DNA from: Pirellulales bacterium | GTDB taxonomy: Bacteria > Planctomycetota > Planctomycetia > Pirellulales > DATAWG01 | Length of the DNA stretch: 64,000 nt | Assembly (NCBI GenBank): GCA_035939775.1 | Contig: DASZFO010000354.1 | Location: forward strand, 1-64,000 | Direction of reading: 5' to 3' | Part shown: positions 17,443-29,341 of the stretch, piece after piece | Layout of the letters: every line of letters begins with the position of its first letter | How positions within the stretch are numbered: the stretch's first letter is position 1 | Translations under genes and position numbers: made by a program | Notes under the pieces: model-generated | The model's input: only the letters and a program-made list of their open reading frames with translations | Told to the model about the DNA's origin: nothing | The model's database searches: none

Positions 17443-20022
17443 ATGGAATTCTGGCGACAAAACCGCCTGCGAATAGCCGCGACCTCGGTCGCCGGCGGTC
17501 CGCGCAAATCCCCGCTCAGCGTCGAACGGCTGTTGCAGATCAACATCGCCATGCTCGTGCCGCTCGGGACGATGATGCTCGGCATGGGCGATCGTGGAAT
17601 GCCGCTCGCCGCCGCGGTCCTCATCGCCTCCCTCGCCTCGATGTTTCTGACCGATCGATGGGGCTGGATTCGGTTGAATCGCCTGGTGGCCAACGTGATC
17701 GCCCTCGCGGCCACGGTCGTCTCGGTATCCCAGTTCGTCCACGTCGCTAGCGGAGAACAGCTCCTCGCGATCGCGAACTTGCTCGTCTATTTGCAAGTCG
17801 TCCTGCTATTTCAGCAAAAGACGGTTCGACGCCACTGGCAGTTGCTCGTGCTGAGCGGATTGGAAGTGGTCGTGGCGACGGCGATCAATCTGAGCCTGCT
17901 CTTTGGCGTGCTCTTGGTGATGTATTTATTCGTGGCACTGGCCGCGCTGGGGCTGATCTTTATTCTGCGTGAGACGGAGCGTTACTCGCGGCGCACCGCG
18001 GCCGCAGAGCAAAGGTCGCGCTCCGCCACCAACGGCGATTCCACTCAAGCAAGATTGCGCTGGCCACTGCGCCGAGAAATCGAGATCATCGCCGCGCGGC
18101 CGCCGGACCTGCCGCGACAAATCCTCGGCGCGGGCATCCTGTGGCGCACGGCCGGCATCGGCGGCGGCACGCTGATCGTCGCCACGATCTGCTTCCTGTT
18201 CCTGCCGCGATTCGGCAAGGCGCTCACCGATGCGACCGGCCAGCAGGCGACGGTCGGTTACAATCCGACCGTGAAGCTCGGCGATCTGGGGCCGCTGCTC
18301 GAGGACCCCGAAATCGTGATGCAGGTCGAGTTCCGCAATGCCGCCGGCGATTTGATTACGCCGACTAGCCCGCCCCTGCTCCGCGGTTCGCTCGTGAACC
18401 ATTACCAACAGGGGGAGTGGAAGCTCGTCGGGGCCGATGTGCAGCCGCGCGACCCCGATTCCGGGGCCGTGGTTCGGCTCAGGTCGGCTCCGGCCGGGCC
18501 GGAGCTGGTCCGCGAGCGAATCACGATTCAGCCGATGCGCCAATCGGTTTTGTTCGGCGTCTACCCGCCCTACCAATCCGAGGCGCCGAAGTCGCGGCGC
18601 TATGTGCGATACGATCCAAATCGCCAGCAACTCATTCGCACCGGGCGCGATGTGCTCTCGCAGGAATTCGAATACGAAGTGCTCACCACGGGACTGTCGC
18701 AAAACCATCAATCGCGGGTCGTCCCAAAACTGCTGCCGCGCGAGCATGAAATGGACGACCTGTTGCAGCTCCCCGATAATCCGCCGCCGCGAAGCGGGAC
18801 TCCGTCGCCCGAGAACCGCCGGGGATTGTCCCCTTTTGTGGAGTCTTCGGAACAAAAGGGGACTGTCCCCCTCTCCTCAGGCGGTTCTCCGATAGGCGCT
18901 AAGCGCGACCAACTCACCGGGCTGCGTGCGTTCGCGGCGCAAAAGGTGCGCGAGTTCAAAATCGGGGCCGATGATCATTACGCCGCGGCCCGCCTGCTCG
19001 AGCGGGTTCTCGCGCTGCCGCCGTTCGAATACTCGCTCGCCCGCCCGCCGGCCGAGCCGGGCGCCGATCCTATCGAGGATTTCGTCACCCGTAATCCGCG
19101 CGGGCATTGCGAGTATTTCGCGAGCGCCCTGACGCTCATGCTTCGCAGCCTTGGCATCCCTTCCCGCATGGTGATCGGTTATCGCAGCGGCGACTGGAAC
19201 CAGATCGGCTCGTATTACGACGTGCGGCAATTGCACGCTCATGCCTGGGTCGAGGCCTACCTGGATGCGAACCAGATCAAGAACGTGCCGGAAAACGAGC
19301 GGCCCGCCGGGGTCTCGCTCGACGACGGCGCCTGGCTGGTTCTCGATCCGACGCCGGCGGCGCAAGCCAATGAGGCCTTCGCCCCGGGTTCGTTCATGTC
19401 GTCGATCGCCGGTCTGTCGGACTATATACAGGTGCTTTGGAACACCTACGTCGTCGGGCTCAATTCCGAGCGGCAAGACAAGGCGATTTATCAGCCGGTC
19501 GCGGAGTTTGGCCGCGCGCTCCAAAAGCTGGCGACGGATCCACCGCAAGCGATCGGCGATTTATTCCGGCATCTGCGGCACTGGCTGTTCGGCGGCGGCG
19601 ACGGCTCGGATGGTGGGCTGGATTGGTATGTGCTGGCCGCGATGGTCGTTCTGGCGGTCGCGGCGTGGCTCGTCTATCGGCTGACGCGGCTCGTCGCGCG
19701 AGCTACATTCCGCCAGCTCAAGCGCCGCCGTGCCGCCTCGGCCGCCCGCAGTCGAGTCGAGTTCTATCGCCGCTTCGAAGTGCTCTTGGCGCGGCACGGA
19801 ATCCGCCGCGCCGCCGGTCAGACCCAGCTTGAATTGGCCCATTACGCCGCCGCGCGATTGACGGCGTCGCTCGGCCCGCGCCGCGCCGCGGCCCTCCCCG
19901 CGCACCTCGTCGCCGCGTTCTACCGCGTCCGCTTCGGCCACGCCACCCTGAACGCCTCCGAAGCTCTCGCAGTCGAACAGCTACTGAGTCAACTCAGTCA
20001 GGGGCTGGGGACAACGCGATGA
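17443..20022 (+). CDS. TgpA-like membrane transglutaminase (DUF3488 plus transglutaminase core), with in-frame repeat insertion
   Basis: About 859 residues. Multiple N-terminal membrane helices (DUF3488/TgpA-like) are followed by a periplasmic transglutaminase-like core with the triad visible: Cys in GHCEYFASALTL, His in LHAHAWVEAY, Asp in WLVLDPTP. A further membrane helix (WYVLAAMVVLAVAAWLVY) precedes a C-terminal DUF4129-like cytoplasmic tail. It completes the MoxR-DUF58-transglutaminase set. ATG at 17443 is preferred; an upstream TTG at 17419 overlaps the DUF58 stop. Oddity: about 30 codons (18805-18895), just before the catalytic core, are a palindromic element of the GGGGACTGTCCCC family read in frame (RRGLSPF..KGTVPLS). 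It sits in a linker, so the enzyme is probably still functional. Confidence 0.9.
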   Translation: MEFWRQNRLRIAATSVAGGPRKSPLSVERLLQINIAMLVPLGTMMLGMGDRGMPLAAAVLIASLASMFLTDRWGWIRLNRLVANVIALAATVVSVSQFVHVASGEQLLAIANLLVYLQVVLLFQQKTVRRHWQLLVLSGLEVVVATAINLSLLFGVLLVMYLFVALAALGLIFILRETERYSRRTAAAEQRSRSATNGDSTQARLRWPLRREIEIIAARPPDLPRQILGAGILWRTAGIGGGTLIVATICFLFLPRFGKALTDATGQQATVGYNPTVKLGDLGPLLEDPEIVMQVEFRNAAGDLITPTSPPLLRGSLVNHYQQGEWKLVGADVQPRDPDSGAVVRLRSAPAGPELVRERITIQPMRQSVLFGVYPPYQSEAPKSRRYVRYDPNRQQLIRTGRDVLSQEFEYEVLTTGLSQNHQSRVVPKLLPREHEMDDLLQLPDNPPPRSGTPSPENRRGLSPFVESSEQKGTVPLSSGGSPIGAKRDQLTGLRAFAAQKVREFKIGADDHYAAARLLERVLALPPFEYSLARPPAEPGADPIEDFVTRNPRGHCEYFASALTLMLRSLGIPSRMVIGYRSGDWNQIGSYYDVRQLHAHAWVEAYLDANQIKNVPENERPAGVSLDDGAWLVLDPTPAAQANEAFAPGSFMSSIAGLSDYIQVLWNTYVVGLNSERQDKAIYQPVAEFGRALQKLATDPPQAIGDLFRHLRHWLFGGGDGSDGGLDWYVLAAMVVLAVAAWLVYRLTRLVARATFRQLKRRRAASAARSRVEFYRRFEVLLARHGIRRAAGQTQLELAHYAAARLTASLGPRRAAALPAHLVAAFYRVRFGHATLNASEALAVEQLLSQLSQGLGTTR
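18811..18889. repeat. GGGGACTGTCCCC element, copy A (inside the TgpA-like gene)
   Basis: Outer arms GAGAACCGCC (18811-18820) and GGCGGTTCTC (18880-18889) are perfectly complementary. Inside are GGGGATTGTCCCC (18821-18833), a TTTTGT..ACAAAA dyad (18834-18857) and GGGGACTGTCCCC (18858-18870). The inner 24 bases are the exact reverse complement of those in copy D. The element is inserted in coding sequence without breaking the frame. Confidence 0.9.
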
Positions 20023-20043: not shown

Positions 20044-20137
20044 CGCCTGACAAATCCGGCGGGGACTGTCCCCCTTTTGCGAATTCCGCGCAGCAAAACG
20101 GAGACTGTCCCCTTCTCCCAGCCGGATTTGTTAGGCG
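20044..20137. repeat. GGGGACTGTCCCC element, copy B
   Basis: Outer arms at 20044-20060 and 20121-20137 (CGCCTGACAAATCCGGC against GCCGGATTTGTTAGGCG) pair with one mismatch. The core has GGGGACTGTCCCC (20061-20073), a TTTTGC..GCAAAA dyad, and GGAGACTGTCCCC (20100-20112). Intergenic, just downstream of the transglutaminase gene. Outer arms match those of copy F, so B and F belong to one subfamily. Confidence 0.9.
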
Positions 20138-20143
20138 CTCGTA

Positions 20144-20177
20144 CGGCCTCCAGCGTTCCCTCAAAGCGAAGCTTTGA
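20144..20177 (+). pseudogene. Remnant of an S23-type four-helix-bundle gene (3' end only)
   Basis: Thirty-four bases match the last 34 bases of the intact gene at 21613-21990 (21957-21990) at 31 of 34 positions, including the final codons for LKAKL and the TGA. Nothing else of that gene is visible upstream. It is followed, as the intact gene is, by a C-rich tract of CCCTCGTCCC type. It looks like the 3' scar of a second copy. Confidence 0.6.
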
Positions 20178-20212
20178 GCATTTTCCCCCTCGTCCCTCAC
20201 CCCTCGCCCCTA

Positions 20213-21484
20213 ATGAAAATCGGTCTCATTGGTTATCAAGGTTCCGGCAAGAGCACGCTCTTCGAATGGCTTACCGGCGTGAAGCCCGATCCGGCGCTGG
20301 CCCATGCCTCGCAAAGCGCGATGGCCACGGTCCCCGAGCCGCGCGTCGAGCCGCTGTGCCAGGTCTACCATCCCAAGAAGGTCACGCTCGCGGCCCTCGA
20401 ATTGGTCGACACCCCCGGCCTGAGCCGCACGCACGAGGGCAACGCCGCCCGCCTCGGACTGATCCGCGAGGCCGGCTGCCTGGTGCTAGTCGTCGCTGGA
20501 TACGCGGGCGGCAATCCGCTGGCCGATCTGGTCGCGTTCGATGAAGATTTCCTCCTGGCCGACATGGAGATCGTCGGCGGCCGGATCGAGCGGCTCAAGG
20601 AATCGCTAAAAAAGCCCCATCCCAAGGCCGAGCGCGAGCACGAGCAAAACGAGCTGGCCGCCCTCGAGCCGCTGCTAACCAAATTGGAGGCCGGCCAGCA
20701 TCTCAATCAATCGGAGATGACCGACGAGCAGCTCAAAGCCACCAGCAGCTTCCGACTGCTCACGCAAAAGCCGAAGCTCGTTGTCGTGAACCTGGCCGAC
20801 GACGATTCCCCCGACCGCTTCGCCGAAAAAAACGCCAGGGGACTGTCGCCGCATTCTCCCTCTCCTTCGGGAGAGGGCCGAGCTGAGGGTGCCGAGCCCG
20901 GGGGACTGTCCCCTTTTTCGCAGCGGGCACCATCGCCAGATGGTCGGGAGAAAAAGGGGACTGTCCCCCTCTCCGCCGGCGGTTCCCAATCTTCTCCCTC
21001 TTCCTCGACGGGAGAGGGCCGCCCTGCCGTGAGCTTGTCGAAAGGGGGTGAGGGCGCCTCCGTCCTAAAAACTCTCTCCGGCGTCCCTCTCGTCGCCATC
21101 CCCCTCGGCCTGGAAGTTGAACTCGCCCGGATGACGCCCGAGGATCGGGCCGAATTCGAGCGCGAAATGGGGGTCGGCCACGGCGACCGCGACAGCCTCC
21201 TCCGCACGATCCTGAACGTCTCCGGCCAGATGCTCTATTTCACGGCCGGGGATAAAGAGGTCCGCACCTGGATGCTCCGCCAAGGGGGCACGGCCCTGGA
21301 AGCGGCCGACAACATCCACAGCGACCTGGCCCGCGGCTTCATCCGCGCCGAAGTGATGCAGTGCGCCGACCTGATCCGCCTTGGCAGCGAGCGCGAGATC
21401 AAAGCCCACAACCTCATGCGCCAAGAGCCGAAAGACTACGTCATCCGCGACGGCGACATCCTCCACATCCGCTTCAGCGTGTGA
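20213..21484 (+). CDS. YchF/Obg-type GTPase with DUF933 (TGS-like) domain and in-frame repeat insertion
   Basis: About 423 residues. The P-loop is GYQGSGKST near residue 7; ELVDTPGLS is the G3 region and KPKLVVVNLADDD resembles the G4 strand. The C-terminal domain (EVRTWMLRQGGTALEAAD, DLARGFIRAEVM, KDYVIRDGDILHIRF) matches the DUF933 domain of YchF, a translation-associated ATP/GTPase. Classic YchF has GxPNVGKST, so this is a divergent relative. ATG at 20213 directly precedes the P-loop strand; an earlier in-frame start would translate repeat DNA. Oddity: about 73 codons (20838-21056) between the G4 strand and the following VPLVAIPLGLEVEL strand are nested repeats, including two GGGGACTGTCCCC copies and two CTCTCCC-type hairpins, all in frame. 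Whether the protein remains active is uncertain. Confidence 0.85.
   Translation: MKIGLIGYQGSGKSTLFEWLTGVKPDPALAHASQSAMATVPEPRVEPLCQVYHPKKVTLAALELVDTPGLSRTHEGNAARLGLIREAGCLVLVVAGYAGGNPLADLVAFDEDFLLADMEIVGGRIERLKESLKKPHPKAEREHEQNELAALEPLLTKLEAGQHLNQSEMTDEQLKATSSFRLLTQKPKLVVVNLADDDSPDRFAEKNARGLSPHSPSPSGEGRAEGAEPGGLSPFSQRAPSPDGREKKGTVPLSAGGSQSSPSSSTGEGRPAVSLSKGGEGASVLKTLSGVPLVAIPLGLEVELARMTPEDRAEFEREMGVGHGDRDSLLRTILNVSGQMLYFTAGDKEVRTWMLRQGGTALEAADNIHSDLARGFIRAEVMQCADLIRLGSEREIKAHNLMRQEPKDYVIRDGDILHIRFSV
20838..21056. repeat. Nested repeat insertion inside the YchF-type gene (element copy C plus CTCTCCC hairpins)
   Basis: From left to right: a degenerate GGGGACTGTCGCC (20838-20850); a hairpin CCCTCTCC-TTCG-GGAGAGGG (20858-20877); GGGGACTGTCCCC at 20901-20913 and again at 20956-20968 around a TTTTT..AAAAA dyad; a second CTCTCCC-like hairpin near 20997-21020; and a G-rich tail to about 21056. 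All of it is open in the reading frame of the host gene. Confidence 0.85.
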
Positions 21485-21490
21485 GGGGAA

Positions 21491-21548
21491 GGGGCTGGGG
21501 GCTGGGGACTGGGGAAATGTAGCAGGCACACCCCCTGTGCCGTCCGCC
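21491..21548. repeat. G-run repeat (left of S23 gene) plus partial GTAGCAGGCACA repeat
   Basis: A GGGGCTGGGG/GGGGACTGGGG tract lies at 21491-21514. From 21519 a GTAGCAGGCACA..CTGTGCCGTCCGCC half-repeat follows. The tract is the inverted partner of the tract at 21998-22019 on the other side of the four-helix-bundle gene. Confidence 0.75.
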
Positions 21549-21612
21549 TGCGCGGAAAGAAACTGGGGGCTGGGAATGAAACGAACTCACATCAAATCAA
21601 GGAGATCACGAA

Positions 21613-21990
21613 ATGAGCGATGAAAACTCGGTCCGGTGTTATCAGCAGTTGCAGGTTTGGCAGTTGGCTATGGACGTTGCCGAGGAAACCTATCGTCTGA
21701 CGTCCCCATTTCCGAAGCACGAGCTGTATGGGCTTTGCAGTCAAATGCAGCGTGCGGCCGTTTCAATACCTTCGAACATTGCCGAGGGCCATGCGCGCGA
21801 TTCGACGCGCGAATTCTTGCACCACATTTCCATCACTTTCGGCTCAATCGCCGAGCTTGAGACACAGCTTCTGCTGTCAAACCGCCTCGATTATCTCGCC
21901 AAGCCAAAACTCGACGAGGTCATGCCGCAAATCGATCGCGTCGGCCGAATGCTCGGCGGTCTACAGCGCTCCCTCAAAGCGAAGCTTTGA
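21613..21990 (+). CDS. Four-helix-bundle protein, 23S rRNA intervening-sequence (S23) type
   Basis: A 125-residue protein of the S23/four-helix-bundle family (PF05635, TIGR02436-like): LQVWQLAMDVAEETYRLT, CSQMQRAAVSIPSNIAEGHA and FLHHISITFGSIAELETQL are the family's hallmark segments. Homologues are encoded within intervening sequences of 23S rRNA genes in some bacteria and otherwise scattered in genomes; the biochemical role is not settled. A good ribosome-binding site (AAGGAG) lies 8 bases before the ATG. The gene is bracketed by inverted G-run repeats (21491-21514 and 21998-22019), and a 34-base remnant of its 3' end lies upstream at 20144-20177. This arrangement suggests a dispersible unit. 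Confidence 0.9.
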   Translation: MSDENSVRCYQQLQVWQLAMDVAEETYRLTSPFPKHELYGLCSQMQRAAVSIPSNIAEGHARDSTREFLHHISITFGSIAELETQLLLSNRLDYLAKPKLDEVMPQIDRVGRMLGGLQRSLKAKL

Positions 21991-21997
21991 TCCCACT

Positions 21998-22019
21998 CCA
22001 GTCCCCAGCCCCCAGTCCC
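21998..22019. repeat. C-run repeat right of the S23 gene
   Basis: A CCAGTCCCCAGCCCCCAGTC-type tract, complementary over 16 bases (CCAGTCCCCAGCCCCC) to the tract at 21491-21514. A third tract of the same kind sits at 27521-27548, inside the leader of the large pseudopilin-like gene. Confidence 0.75.
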
Positions 22020-22025
22020 TCGCCG

Positions 22026-25000: not shown

Positions 25001-27569
25001 TCTTGATCTTTTCCTGCGGGGGCGGATTGCCGTTTCCAGTGTCCCCGGGCTCATCGACGATCCCGTCGCCGTTGTCATCGCGGCCATTGCCGAATGGCCG
25101 ATTGATGTCCATCTTCAGGCCGCCAAACATTTCAGGCGGCATTATCCTTCCAAGTTCGGCGTCGAGCGCCGTAGTAATCTGCGATGCGCTTGCGTTGACC
25201 GGGAGGACCCCGCTTAGCGGGCTTTTGAAGCTATTGTACAGCTTTGCCCGCAAAAGATCGGCGAATTGGAACACCCGGCCGCCGTATGCAGGAAATTTTG
25301 CCGGGTCAATCCCCATTGCTTTCCAATAGGCATCGACATAGTCATGGGCAGCCTGTTGCCGAAAATCGCGCGGCACGGCGAGGCCCGGAACCGGCGAGTC
25401 CCAGCTATCGGTTGTAAGGTCGTTGGTCTTTGCCGCGATTTGCGCCGGTGTGAAGGTGCTCGTGCTAGGATCGAGCGAAGTTAGAAGACTAGCCAAGCGC
25501 GGCGCGAGCGACCGCGCATCGACATCATGCGACCGCAGCACTCGCTCCAATTCGGCGGGCGTGAACGGATTGTCCAATCCTGCTTGTGTCATGCCGCGGC
25601 CGGGCCGCGGGGCGTTCAGGTCAATTCCATAGGGAGTGTCCACCGCCTTGATCAAGGTGGAACTCACGTCAAACACTTCGCTCGTCCAATAGTTTCCGTT
25701 CGTCGCGTTTGCGCCCGGTGTGATGAATAGCGGCTGCCCGCGGTAGTCGAGGCCCACGGTGCGGCGGGACTTCAAGTCGCCGGGAGTGCCGAAGGACGTA
25801 AGCACATCGTATTGACTGTTGGCTTTTGTGACATCTCGGTAATCATTCAGCGGATACTCGAACATCTTGACGGCCGTCATCGGCCGATTGGAGACGGGCG
25901 AAACTCCCATTCCGTGACGACCCTGCGTGGTCGTGTTTATGTTGTTCGGACCGACGCCGAAGATATTCTGCATTTCGTTCGACGAAAGAATCCGCGTTAG
26001 GTCAATGTCGGCCGGGCCAAAGCCCAGTCCGGCCGCAAGTTGTACGGGCGTTCCGCCGGCCAACGGACCAGTCGAGGTTTGTTGAAAGTTCGAATCCTGC
26101 TGGGCATAGCTTCCGTGAGCATTGAGATTCACGCGGCCGTCGAGATCGAGGATCAGCGGCGCGACCAGAACCTTATACGTCCGACCATCCTTCGAGGTCA
26201 TTACTGGTAGACCCGGATCAATCCAGATGCTGTCGGGAACGCCGTTCCCCATGTTGTCGACGTCAAGTGGGGTACTAGACACCCCGGGACCCCCGGGATC
26301 CGTGGAACTCGCGGGAGGCCTGTTAAAGGCGGAGTTGGTCGCAGCACAGAAGATCGGGTGGTCAGTTATGGTAGGACGGAAAAGAACCCTCCGTGCAATG
26401 GAGCGTATTAGGTCGGGAGTGATACTAGGCGTCGATTGTATTCGTTTGTTCCAATACGCATATAAATCTGCGCGATGAAACGACGGCAGGACGCCGCCGG
26501 TGTTGTTCACCAAGCCCAAATACATATTGTTGTAGTCGTAGGCCGTGTAATCGACGTTCGCCCCGCCGTTGCCGGCCGGATCGGTATACGGAGGATTCGA
26601 CGTCGCGTTTGGCTTGAAATAGGCAGGATTGGGCAGTAGGGCGTATTCCGCGTTGATCGGATCCCTCGAATCCTTCAGGCCGTTCCAAACCGTTAACCCT
26701 GTTGTGGGGGGGTCTTTTGACGCACCGGTCCAGTCGTAACCGCGCCCCATGCCGGCGTAGGCCGGGCCATTGACGAGAAAGCTGTCGCCTGGGTAATTCG
26801 TGCTAGGATCGGCAGAGTTCGGATAGAGCAGCCCCGCGTCGGCATGGAACTGCATGACGGTCAGACCGGTGCCGTTGGAAGCCACGATCCGGGCGCTTAG
26901 TCCGGCACAGGGGCCGTTGAGCATTGTCAGGACGCAGCCTTGGTAATAGTAATTGGCGGATTGATAGTTCGTCGGAGTGCTCGCTAAGACGATATTATAG
27001 AACTGCCCGCCGGTGCCCGTTGCGGTCCCCGAATTCTTGCCGACGTTGCCGCGGAAGCTCGCGTTGCCGTAAATCCCTTCGAGCAGGCTCCAGGTGTGGA
27101 AAGGGGAATGGACGTCCGTCGTGTCGCGGAAGAGGACCATTGCCAGGGAATCGAGCAATTGAGCCGGGGAGTCGCCGGATTGCTCGTGGCGGCCGATGGC
27201 TTTGGTCGCCCCGCGTTCCTTGGAGGCCACGAGCACGTAGGTGACCGTCAGCAATACGAACAGCACCAGCACGCTCAGCACGACCAGGAGCAGCACCCCG
27301 CGCCGCCGCCGCTCCGAAGGCCGCCGAGCGAGAGACAAGGGGCGAGGGACGAGGGATGAGGGGCGAGGGACGGACTGCCTGCTCCCCTCGCCCCGTTGCG
27401 GGAGAGGGGCCGGGGGTGAGGGGCTGGAATGATTTTGGATTTTGGATTTTGAATTTCCGACTTCGGACGCGGGGCATCCCGCCGCGAGCGGCGCGGCTAA
27501 CTTCCGTCCTCCGACCTCCGAGCCCCCAGCCCCCAGTCCCCAGTCCCCATCTTGATTGGCAAGCGACAT
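22026..27569 (-). CDS. Very large prepilin-like/GspK-type protein with repeat-derived leader
   Basis: About 1847 residues, last gene of the pilus-like operon. After a long leader comes RRRRG-VLLLVVLSVLVLFVLL, a prepilin or GspK/PilX-type hydrophobic N-terminus. The rest is extracytoplasmic, with segments such as GRDDNGDGIVDEPGD that resemble calcium-binding loops and SPLSGVLPVNASASQI-type helical parts; no enzymatic domain is recognised. GspK minor pseudopilins are about 320 residues, so this is several times the usual size. ATG at 27569 is chosen; a GTG two codons upstream is in frame. Oddity: the first 91 codons are mostly repeats (a GGGGACTGGGG tract, a GGAGAGG..CCTCTCC-type hairpin, and GAGGGGCGAGGGAC tandem repeats) before the cleavage-like Gly at 91. 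Confidence 0.75.
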   Translation of the reverse strand: MSLANQDGDWGLGAGGSEVGGRKLAAPLAAGCPASEVGNSKSKIQNHSSPSPPAPLPQRGEGSRQSVPRPSSLVPRPLSLARRPSERRRRGVLLLVVLSVLVLFVLLTVTYVLVASKERGATKAIGRHEQSGDSPAQLLDSLAMVLFRDTTDVHSPFHTWSLLEGIYGNASFRGNVGKNSGTATGTGGQFYNIVLASTPTNYQSANYYYQGCVLTMLNGPCAGLSARIVASNGTGLTVMQFHADAGLLYPNSADPSTNYPGDSFLVNGPAYAGMGRGYDWTGASKDPPTTGLTVWNGLKDSRDPINAEYALLPNPAYFKPNATSNPPYTDPAGNGGANVDYTAYDYNNMYLGLVNNTGGVLPSFHRADLYAYWNKRIQSTPSITPDLIRSIARRVLFRPTITDHPIFCAATNSAFNRPPASSTDPGGPGVSSTPLDVDNMGNGVPDSIWIDPGLPVMTSKDGRTYKVLVAPLILDLDGRVNLNAHGSYAQQDSNFQQTSTGPLAGGTPVQLAAGLGFGPADIDLTRILSSNEMQNIFGVGPNNINTTTQGRHGMGVSPVSNRPMTAVKMFEYPLNDYRDVTKANSQYDVLTSFGTPGDLKSRRTVGLDYRGQPLFITPGANATNGNYWTSEVFDVSSTLIKAVDTPYGIDLNAPRPGRGMTQAGLDNPFTPAELERVLRSHDVDARSLAPRLASLLTSLDPSTSTFTPAQIAAKTNDLTTDSWDSPVPGLAVPRDFRQQAAHDYVDAYWKAMGIDPAKFPAYGGRVFQFADLLRAKLYNSFKSPLSGVLPVNASASQITTALDAELGRIMPPEMFGGLKMDINRPFGNGRDDNGDGIVDEPGDTGNGNPPPQEKIKSSDFPYWPSSYPASVNLDITDGVATPQMGRQLMARYLYTLVMAFSDFSDPKFSNWTTDPIAAANIQAANARRAAQWAINAVCFRDSSSVMTPFVYHSHIFQSDYAGWKASGDPSQVPPNQAASADLQIVWGCKPPDIVMTETLAFHDRATADTRFDDGPKRKTTDPQDPDPLKNDKNFDQIRVPQGSLFIELYCCRNPSNPIYPTDLYTKDKNTGQWCLELSKQAPDGNPVWRMVITDSTTNLTTAATTNKDTFTIQNDTTDNVTTMKSLIINTFSSALTANVDRIIWFPTVKPPTPATPGLFYNWNQSPIFVPPAAYAVIGPRPKTYVGSIKDPTSYCEKTATSQSITVSANSATSLNTAYSDPQNTDRKQVVGVIIAANPPASWGNVAKTAPQGIGLNVSEPLPTSQYYYPEPTVLDPGTNLTDAYGGTPNATNNGLIGDSAFPFRNNPLELGTGDPNALNRPLSLTGVAKTGTKQLYKHVVLQRLADPRAAWDRVKNPYITVDWMPIDLTTFSGESADPDPDDAIGPVNLSSRQRGGYTNPPPASGNNLWGQPTDALPRDMLGNNVWNFNHQLQHTIGYLNTGFGQGFTQAAAAGGPGAAYAGDPQKPFPWIAWNARPYANVMELLLVPGSSPDRLLMDFSSPGTISASAQTPDPYFAANVSFHAPFQHLLNFFNSTDYHDPADKGDTAGNLYRVLDYLTVPSRFIGSDTVLNPSVFTSTSGQSPFLPPFNKVSNYRDPGRININTVTSSDVLAALIGVPMDPAKGGYPTLLNRLIMSRRGDGKTNNTGLITADQDFPTSVAAPFRAAGAADLVPLANMLHRGVDLSLLRADPTVPPSATGIGTNPERPLFGLDTLKGLGALVGDYNQPTRNSYFYYQGLERIGNNVTTRSNVFAVWLTVGYFEVLPWPQRGINYGPGMTVTSPSSFTPDDIKAHADGFQLGAELGSDTGDIVRHRAFYIFDRSIPVGYERGQNHNVNRAILLRRYIE

Positions 27570-27796
27570 ATTCACACCATTCCGCTTAGGAGCCGGCCCC
27601 TTGCCCAGAAGCCGCCTCGTTGATTTGCTTTTTCTCGTGCCAGGCTCTTTGATTGAACCAAGACAAGCATTTTATTTATGAGGAAACCAGGAAGACAGGA
27701 AGAGAATTCATGTAGATCACGACGCTCGCTCCTGTTTTCCTGGCCTCCTCATAAAAATCCGTTTGGTCGCGGCCATCGGCCGCGCTTTTCCTTGCT

Positions 27797-29341
27797 TCAA
27801 TTCGACCACATCGACGGGCCTTCCAGGCGGACCGTGCGTTCGTATACTGCCACGGCGCCGTCGTAAATGAACGCCCAAAACTTCGGATACGAAGTGCCTT
27901 GCCAGTCCTTCCAATACGGCTGCTGTACGATTGCCATGTTCAAATCGGGGCCGCTAATCGTAAGATTGCGGGCATAATACTTGGCCGATCGATTTGGATT
28001 GCTCGGATCGTTGTTGATGTTCGGGGACAAAATCGGTCCCGCCGAGACCACTCGATACCAGCGAAAGAACGGCCGCTGGGTCTGGCCGCTCGAATCCTTG
28101 GGCGCGTTGATGTCGTATACCATCGTTCCGAGCATGATCCATTCGCCGACGTTGACCGCCAAGTTCGGACGTTCCGTGACGGAAATGGGAGGGACAGCCA
28201 CCTCATCAGTAATCTGCAGCTCGCCCGCCCCGATGCCAACCGCAGGCGCCGGCACGCCAGCGATCGACGTGCCGGTAAAGGTCGCCACATCAGCCCGTTC
28301 CGCGCTGATGTTCACATTGTTGACCACCGTGCCCGGAGCGACCGCCGTTGGCCGTTGGTTGAAGACGACGATCGACAGAGTCATCAAGTTGCGGTTCACT
28401 GGCTTCCCAGGGTCTCGCGGCGTCGTCGAAGTTGCCGGTGTCGGGGGCACAAGCTCATCACCGTAGACGGGCACAAGTGTGGCGAGCCAACTGTAGCGGC
28501 CATCAAAGGCCCGCTTGGTGCCATTCGAGTTGAATCCGCCGATCGGAACCGCATCCGGGTCGCCGCCGGGAATGGTGAACGCCAGATCGTCCTGCGAGAC
28601 GGAAGCCTGATCGGCCGCCGACCCCAGCACGGTCGAGAGCGTCAACCGCGCCATGGACACCGGGGGCGACGAGGCCGAGCCATTGCTCGCGAACGTGCCG
28701 ACGACCGGATACTTCGCCGCAAACCGATTGATGATGAGCGGATCAATTGCCACCGGCGGAAATGCCTGCGGCGCGGTAATTTCCCTACCCGTTTGATTCA
28801 CTGTGTCGCACAACACCGCGCCTACGTCCGTGGGCTGGTCGAAAACGCAAAAGTTCGCATTGTTCGAATAGCGCCAATTGTCCGGGCGGAGGAAACCGCG
28901 CGTCTTGAGTTCGCGGGTGGCGATTTGCCCAACCTGCGATTTGCGGTCGTCGACCGTCGAGCGCTGGATCTGCAATCCGGCCACGGGCAACAGCGAGGCC
29001 ACGCTCACCAGCCCCACCGCCAGCACGAAGATCGACATCAGCACCTCGAGCAGGGTGATGCCACGTGAGGGGCGAGGGACGAGGGACGAGGGGCGCGGGA
29101 AACTGTAGCAGGCACACTCCGTGTGCCGTCCGCCGGGATTGGTTATGGCACGCGGAGCGAGTGAGGAGGGGCGAAGCGAATTCTCCCCTCTCCATTTGGC
29201 GGGAGAGGGGTCGGGGGTGAGGGGGTAGCGCGTCAGCCGGCGCAGCACCCTCACCCAGGCCCTCTCCCGTCGAGGGAGAGGGAGACTCGACTTTCCCGGT
29301 CTTGTCGCGCCAAGCGGAGTGTGCCTACTACGGTTGAACAT
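27797..29341 (-). CDS. Pseudopilin, GspI/PilV-like, with repeat-derived leader
   Basis: About 514 residues. The prepilin N-terminus is RG-ITLLEVLMSIFVLAVGLVS with the conserved Glu at +5, followed by SLLPVAGLQIQRS and TRELKTRGF, like GspI/PilV minor pseudopilins but with a long globular C-terminus of unknown fold. The ATG at 29341 comes one base after the stop of the upstream gene (TAA at 29343-29345), a coupled start; a GTG at 29353 is also in frame. Oddity: between that ATG and the cleavage Gly there are 94 codons made of repeats: half of a GTAGTAGGCACAC repeat directly after codon 4, two CTCTCCC hairpins, the other GGCACAC half and GAGGGGCGAGGG tracts. Without these the leader would be only a few residues. 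Confidence 0.8.
   Translation of the reverse strand: MFNRSRHTPLGATRPGKSSLPLPRRERAWVRVLRRLTRYPLTPDPSPAKWRGENSLRPSSLAPRAITNPGGRHTECACYSFPRPSSLVPRPSRGITLLEVLMSIFVLAVGLVSVASLLPVAGLQIQRSTVDDRKSQVGQIATRELKTRGFLRPDNWRYSNNANFCVFDQPTDVGAVLCDTVNQTGREITAPQAFPPVAIDPLIINRFAAKYPVVGTFASNGSASSPPVSMARLTLSTVLGSAADQASVSQDDLAFTIPGGDPDAVPIGGFNSNGTKRAFDGRYSWLATLVPVYGDELVPPTPATSTTPRDPGKPVNRNLMTLSIVVFNQRPTAVAPGTVVNNVNISAERADVATFTGTSIAGVPAPAVGIGAGELQITDEVAVPPISVTERPNLAVNVGEWIMLGTMVYDINAPKDSSGQTQRPFFRWYRVVSAGPILSPNINNDPSNPNRSAKYYARNLTISGPDLNMAIVQQPYWKDWQGTSYPKFWAFIYDGAVAVYERTVRLEGPSMWSN
29105..29331. repeat. Split GTAGCAGGCACAC inverted repeat with nested CTCTCCC hairpins
   Basis: A GTAGCAGGCACACTCCGTGT arm begins at 29105 and its partner GCGGAGTGTGCCTACTAC lies at 29314-29331. 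Between them are two hairpins of the CTCTCCC family (about 29186-29210, and 29260-29282 with arms CCCTCTCCC and GGGAGAGGG). This looks like repeats inserted into an older repeat, all within the leader of the GspI-like gene. Confidence 0.8.

Follow-up and report, generated by a model that had tools for sequence, protein, structure and literature searches.

What a small gene of the S23 family is doing between two repeat tracts that mirror each other is the question raised by contig DASZFO010000354.1 of a Pirellulales bacterium (assembly GCA_035939775.1). S23 genes, annotated as "four helix bundle protein," are widespread, hitherto without function, and so far familiar chiefly as insertions in rRNA genes. 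The stretch that we analyzed, positions 1 to 64,000 of this contig (C354), is referred to below as the window, and its 6.39-Mb genome as G000. Our answer is that the gene and its two flanking tracts, or arms, probably constitute a copy of a miniature mobile element, the "S23 element," composed of a 5' G-rich arm, an S23 gene, and a 3' C-rich arm, together ~480 bp long.

The gene at 21613-21990 on the plus strand belongs to S23 (PF05635), with an E-value of 5.4e-37 and 126.7 bits against a curated cut-off of 33.8. An initial annotation of this DNA placed it between tracts in opposite orientation, which is borne out. Both arms are made of convergent GGGGGCTGGGGACTGG heptamers, and their inverted alignment covers 22 of 23 bases, with a score of 41. 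The unit, ~480 bp from arm to arm, has the following parts.

21485..21514, plus strand: 5' arm of G-rich heptads of the GGGGGCT/GGGGACT kind (GGGGAAGGGGCTGGGGGCTGGGGACTGGGG), aligned to the 3' arm with a score of 41
21519..21560, plus strand: hairpin repeat GTAGCAGGCACAC...GTGTGCC, which interrupts the 5' arm
21562..21575, plus strand: inner fragment of the 5' arm, ACTGGGGGCTGGGA, nearer the gene and read by eye
21613..21990, plus strand: S23 / 23S_rRNA_IVP four-helix-bundle gene, 125 aa, the sole credible open reading frame (ORF) between the arms
21998..22019, minus strand: 3' arm, the same heptads inverted, 7 bases past the S23 stop

The 5' arm starts directly downstream of the stop codon of a YchF-like GTPase gene. 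A long prepilin-like ORF lies on the other side, and the setting is not a 23S rRNA helix. In the predicted RNA of 21475-22025, the arms are paired (z -3.88).

S23 genes of many phyla are bracketed in this way. For each gene, the 250 bp upstream of the hidden Markov model (HMM) core were aligned with the reverse complement of the 250 bp downstream, and a score of at least 30 was taken as inverted arms; control genes were shifted 45 bp inward to match this core-based measuring. Flanks shorter than 150 bp and duplicates were dropped (beforehand there were 73 S23 ORFs in L037-L105 and 86 in L156-L235). One set covers the phylum of the window and holds the best-scoring S23 matches rather than a random sample; the other, also best-scoring rather than random, holds 80 of 567 confirmed loci from 21 phyla across all bacteria. 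Inverted arms flank 57 of 70 S23 genes in the phylum and 64 of 82 in the all-bacteria set. At the same score, they flank 5/160 and 8/263 neighboring genes of the same loci, respectively, while arms paired across loci reach it in 7/738 and 11/763 cases. HepT-like genes of the same phylum have none (0/29, one of 30 being too short). An earlier scoring from called ORF ends gave 40/74 and 39/82 for S23 genes vs. 3/149 and 6/248 for neighbors, with 1% in a control that was reversed but uncomplemented. That scoring missed arms lying inside over-long ORFs, as in both S23 genes of Xanthomonas codiaei; the excess is seen in both scorings.

The arms follow common rules, which we derived from 154 pairs scoring at least 26 in four sets: our own, the phylum, the all-bacteria, and the named-genome set, which includes some places already present in the all-bacteria set. 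They are inverted, have a period of 7 to 8, are specific to the element, and are polar. The best period is 7 in 116 pairs, 8 in 22, and 9 in 9, with a mean self-identity of 0.63 at lag 7 vs. 0.24-0.36 at other lags. On the coding strand of S23, G exceeds C in the 5' arm of 144 pairs, and C exceeds G in that of nine. The elements have a median length of 478 bp (n = 134) and are tightly fitted: where the upstream gene is codirectional (n = 89), a median of 3 bp separates its stop from the start of the 5' arm, and the 3' arm lies a median of 3 bp from the S23 stop, with an overlap in 58/134. Within one genome, arms match their own partner in 28/35 cases and the arm of another S23 gene in 4/98, two of these four being the sister copies L037/L066. 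Separately, four loci (L207, L079, L090, and L185) each hold two neighboring S23 genes, whose arms are mostly different.

The genome of the window illustrates this specificity. A PF05635 search of G000 returned four matches, the window gene included, and by eye all four genes are flanked by inverted tracts of four different kinds. The three sisters of the window gene are as follows.

L004: S23 gene with arms TGACGAATGTCTAATGAATGACGAAGC, inverted around the gene
L003: S23 gene broken by a stop codon, with arms GAGTAAGAGTAGGATT
L002: S23 gene between nuoC and nuoD (Pfam), with arms GTCAGTGGTCCGTCGTC and, ahead of the 3' arm, another small ORF

Three of the four, L001 (the window gene), L003, and L004, are conspicuous by inverted-arm score; L002 is not. 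L004 scored 50 in the earlier scheme and was missed by the HMM of the core-based scan (own set, 2/3). The search for other S23 genes with the same flanks, suggested in the initial annotation, thus found three sisters, each with inverted arms of its own. The G-run tract itself is no mark of S23, since the other three genes have different arms; other S23 genes without these very flanks do occur, which taken literally would refute the initial annotation, yet each lies between inverted arms of its own. Nor is the tract equally common beside all genes: with one mismatch, GGGGGCTGGGGACTGG has 42 matches in G000, merging into 34 sites (control, 1), and these are not exclusive to S23. The arm kind of L002 has 33 matches elsewhere in G000 with three mismatches (control, 13), which is near background, and it was left unused. 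The second small ORF at L002:1934-2167 (MAKRKNSRLGHKIRIGQ...), between S23 and the remote 3' arm, is possible cargo.

Two kinds of comparison show where the unit ends. L037 and L066 come from two separate contigs of G011. Their 357-bp S23 genes lie within a 452-bp stretch of 87.8% identity, which spans from ~44 bp before to ~41 bp after the gene and no further. Sites lacking the gene are equally telling. In one genus, the gap between groES and groEL (Pfam Cpn10 and Cpn60) could be compared in seven genomes. In G095, G172, and G231, it holds an S23 gene with arms, of three kinds; in G034 and G002, it is a 66-bp spacer; and in G230 (L240) and G232 (L244), it holds a gene with a sulfotransferase domain (Pfam). 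The last four have neither S23 nor arms. In a second genus, where the junction is present in only 2 of 17 genomes, G069 has S23 with arms, and G220 (L237) has an unrelated ORF, ATPase-like by eye, and no arms. Across these two junctions, arms accompany the gene wherever it occurs, and all five genomes without S23 are also without arms. The same groES-groEL gap is occupied by S23 in a Kiritimatiellota genome (L201). As a separate observation, gaps with S23 in some relatives carry other inserted genes in other relatives, and some junctions look like insertion hot spots.

Arms are also found without the gene. With one mismatch, the GACGAATG arm of L004 has 54 matches in G000 (control, 0). From 60 loci, we surveyed 27 distinct sites of the GGGG kind and 22 of the GACGAATG kind for partners. 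A convergent partner lies within 500 bp at 13/26 GGGG-kind and 14/22 GACGAATG-kind sites; a divergent partner was seen at 0/27 and 0/22 sites, respectively. Merged by hand, these make 10 and 11 convergent pairs, one of each kind enclosing an S23 gene. The remaining nine and ten pairs lack S23 and have loops of 20-166 bp. These convergent pairs, not scars, are the true gene-less relatives of the unit.

The initial annotation had read a 34-base near-copy of the 3' end of the gene as such a scar. Three features of the window bear on this.

20144..20177, plus strand: putative remnant of a second S23 gene, truncated to its 3' end and encoding GLQRSLKAKL and a stop, 31/34 identity
20185..20211, minus strand: arm adjoining the truncated copy, made of a different kind of heptad (GGGGCGAGGGGTGAGGGACGAGG; minus-strand reading GGGGCGAGGGGTGAGGGACGAGGGGG)
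27523..27548, minus strand: solitary GGGGACT/GGGGGCT-type arm at the 5' end of the long prepilin-like ORF

The near-copy is real, with 31 of 34 bases identical (BLASTN E-value 3e-10 in a 210 x 550 comparison). With up to two mismatches, an 18-base core of the S23 3' end has two matches in the whole genome, both in the window. Because a reversed-pattern control equally gave two, it is the 34-base alignment rather than the core count that counts as evidence for the near-copy. From its sequence, 20144-20177 is best read as the end of one truncated second S23 gene. We dropped the idea of a scar family made of the last 30-40 bases, since the core matches only these two copies. Of the earlier proposal that gene and tracts move or are copied as a unit leaving scars, the unit is supported by the arms found across bacteria, by L037/L066, and by the arm-less empty sites, while the scars are not. 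A C-rich tract does follow the near-copy as described, but its heptads are of another kind and no partner arm was found within ~480 bp upstream. The tract reported near 27521 in a prepilin leader is present as well, as a solitary arm. The nearest relative examined is G199, whose GTPase is 75% identical. Its syntenic gap is short, with both the remnant and the tract absent, and in the stretch compared its GTPase gene is not followed by S23.

Several other repeats lie nearby. Just before the truncated end, an inverted repeat at 20046-20139 (ACAAATCCGGC ... GCCGGATTTGT) has two GACTGTCCCC sequences inside it. This repeat may have arrived as a small insertion of its own and deleted the 5' part of the second S23 gene. 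Further copies of the hairpin repeat that interrupts the 5' arm occur at 29105 and 31985 of the window, at L137, and in the related genome G199. The YchF-like GTPase ORF contains at 20830-21060 an apparent in-frame insert of GGGGACTGTCCCC palindromes and CCCTCTCC-type repeats, and several relatives have shorter open frames. Perfect 13-base repeats, GGGGACTGTCCCC or GGGGACAGTCCCC, occur at 18858, 20061, 20901, 20956, 32403, 34996, 35035, 41983, and 42022, some of them within coding frames. An intergenic imperfect hairpin at 27673-27750 (GAGGAAACCAGGAAGACAGG...CCTGGCCTCCTCATAAA) is terminator-like.

As for the protein, an AlphaFold2 model of the window S23 built from 24 sequences is a four-helix bundle with a pLDDT of 94.3. 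Its best structural matches are 2GSC (Z 18.4) and 2RLD (Z 17.6), crystal entries with five chains each. The Avd proteins of diversity-generating retroelements (DGR) follow with Z-scores of 15.4 and 14.9 and a root-mean-square deviation of 1.6-1.7, ahead of the first unrelated bundle at Z 13.3. The Pfam profile bAvd matches the window S23 with an E-value of 6e-7, a match whose score falls short of the profile cut-off. Homology between S23 and Avd is already in print, as stated in PMC10053308.

Several points weigh against the S23 element as a mobile unit. No movement was observed. S23 has no known catalytic motif, and an enzyme is absent from the picture. In the two sets, 13/70 and 18/82 S23 genes stay below the score, direct-orientation matches are also raised (13/70 and 7/82), and both samples were drawn from the top of the match scores. 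L002 falls below the score too, its 3' arm sitting past the second small ORF. We saw no target-site duplication at groES-groEL, where the former spacer has been replaced; a short one could have escaped notice between genomes as distant as those compared. The S23 proteins of that gap are only 50-58% identical, which fits one old insertion with drifting arms as well as several insertions. In a tree of 81 S23 proteins, phyla are mixed; it is poorly resolved (44/78 inner branches open) and is no proof of transfer. One inverted pair, itself not rich in G, turned up in 400 kb spread over a genome with 13 S23 genes, and none in 1.2 Mb from three genomes free of S23, so that no genome-level association was shown. 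Lastly, 71/125 S23 loci have codirectional genes on both sides vs. 47% of control genes, a weak excess. The junctions in the cases that we read are groES-groEL, nuoC-nuoD, accB-accC, and places beside carA/carB; we do not claim an operon-junction rule, since the excess over 125 loci is small.

Four other explanations have to be weighed. Arm pairs might be an independent class of repeats, in which S23 settles as a passenger on existing landing pads. Gene-less pairs do outnumber S23 pairs in G000, and Rhodanobacter OK091 has 13 GGGAATC matches, yet its S23 gene has GAGGAGTGAG arms. Against this, arms are specific to their S23 gene even within a genome, the gene fits tightly against and often into its 3' arm, and sites without the gene have no arms to land on; we consider this account unlikely. 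A rather improbable alternative is mobilization in trans by a repetitive extragenic palindromic (REP)-type tyrosine (HUH) transposase, or another enzyme recognizing hairpins, with S23 as cargo or accessory. The convergent pairs resemble the REPINs described in PMC3116915, but the gene between the arms is S23 and not a transposase in the loci inspected.

The arms could also be a stem selected for RNA processing or control without any mobility (an RNase III site or autoregulation), gene-less pairs then being terminators or insulators. This would suit the pairing of the arms in the predicted RNA, the few bases between 5' arms and upstream stops, and the cutting by RNase III of intervening sequence (IVS) stems in 23S rRNA (PMC4990558). 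It is hard to reconcile with arm letters that are unrelated between loci but common to dispersed copies in a genome, with the sister units L037/L066 at two places in one genome, and with the absence of the whole unit from related sites, and we regard it as quite improbable. Base composition has virtually no chance of explaining the arms: although some are low in complexity and short tandem G-rich text may self-align in any orientation, as the direct-orientation matches recall, this is contradicted because neighbors, cross-locus pairs, and HepT genes stay at 0-3% and the reversed uncomplemented control at 1%.

The mobile S23 element thus remains our preferred reading. S23 units would be mobile within and between genomes, the S23 protein presumably acts upon the arms of its own element, and pairs without a gene are likely to be non-autonomous derivatives. 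How such a unit might move is speculative. The element could be transcribed from a neighboring or its own promoter and fold so that the arms form a long stem and the ORF is looped out between them. With its Avd-like fold and five-chain crystals, the S23 protein would bind the stem and pass the nucleic acid on to a host enzyme or a resident one, which would reinsert it into intergenic gaps. Since tandem heptads can pair in many registers, arm-to-arm copying could keep the two arms alike while their letters drift. An RNA intermediate, a borrowed enzyme, and arm-to-arm copying are all conjecture at this stage. In its boldest form, the proposal would make S23 the sole coded part of bacteria-wide mini elements with an RNA intermediate: the RNA is folded by the arms, an Avd-like S23 pentamer recruits a reverse transcriptase or repair polymerase, arms are copied onto each other, the published heptamers of cyanobacteria, Xanthomonas, and others are gene-less copies, and the S23-bearing IVS are elements caught in rRNA. 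We offer this tentatively, as possible rather than probable.

If the preferred reading is true, there is a mobile element without a recognizable recombinase, carrying only a small protein of Avd fold, which suggests a widespread and overlooked kind of tiny mobile DNA. Intergenic heptamer repeats are known in several phyla without an agent, and one architecture would link these repeats, S23 genes, and the S23-bearing IVS of rRNA. The origin of the latter is described as an open question in PMC4990558, and the mobile IVS unit proposed there would gain a home outside rRNA.

Among known systems, these S23-bearing IVS are closest. The IVS of Coxiella burnetii 23S rRNA is ~430-445 nt long, with an S23 ORF and complementary ends that form a 28-bp stem; such sequences have been termed selfish genetic elements, and a mobile unit needing its ORF for mobility has already been proposed (PMC4990558). 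They share with the window unit the protein family and the complementary ends around the ORF. In contrast, they sit in helices of 23S rRNA, and heptads are not mentioned for their ends in the parts of PMC4990558 that describe them, whereas the units reported here lie between protein genes, have heptad arms, and have gene-less relatives. An IVS with an S23 ORF could be such a unit that has come to sit in an rRNA helix.

The REP/REPIN systems with their REP-associated tyrosine transposase (RAYT) resemble S23 units in that a gene with its repeat is accompanied by dispersed, gene-less inverted pairs between genes (PMC3116915). Here, however, S23 takes the place of an HUH transposase and a tract of tandem heptads that of a compact palindrome, and no RAYT lies between the arms of the window, where S23 is the sole credible ORF.

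The arms themselves are tandem G-rich 7-base units between genes, as are published heptamer repeats. Those of cyanobacteria are named short tandemly repeated repetitive (STRR) sequences. The heptamers of Xanthomonas, Nostoc, and Beggiatoaceae share period and style with the arms of S23 genes. In two Xanthomonas genomes, GGGAATC heptamers form 70 and 75 convergent pairs, Nostoc has GGGGA(C/T)T, and both are described as generally without mobile-element association (PMC4692102); the TAACTGA repeats of Beggiatoaceae have the same period of 7, and a mobile-element origin is considered for them (PMC4679880). The terms "S23" and "four helix" have no occurrence in PMC4692102 and PMC4679880, and our search of the open-access literature, which took in no preprints and left subscription journals mostly uncovered, found no paper that connects S23 genes with heptamer repeats. 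Such a link is seen in X. codiaei, which has two S23 genes. The one between accB and accC has GGGATT/GGGAATC arms, the published kind, and the one before carB has GGGGACC arms; GGGAATCGGGAATCG, of the GGGAATC kind, has 75 matches in this genome (control, 0).

DGR are likened to the window unit by the Avd fold, at Z-scores little above those of unrelated bundles, and, unlike in DGR, neither a reverse transcriptase nor template and variable repeats lie between the window arms. We read S23 elements as recombinase-free units with a layout that is both REP/RAYT-like and IVS-like. We rate them as a categorically new class because what defines each neighboring kind, be it the rRNA site, the RAYT gene, or the reverse transcriptase, is lacking here; a prior description outside the open-access literature is possible. 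Seen from this class, the S23-bearing IVS of rRNA may be a special case of S23 elements.

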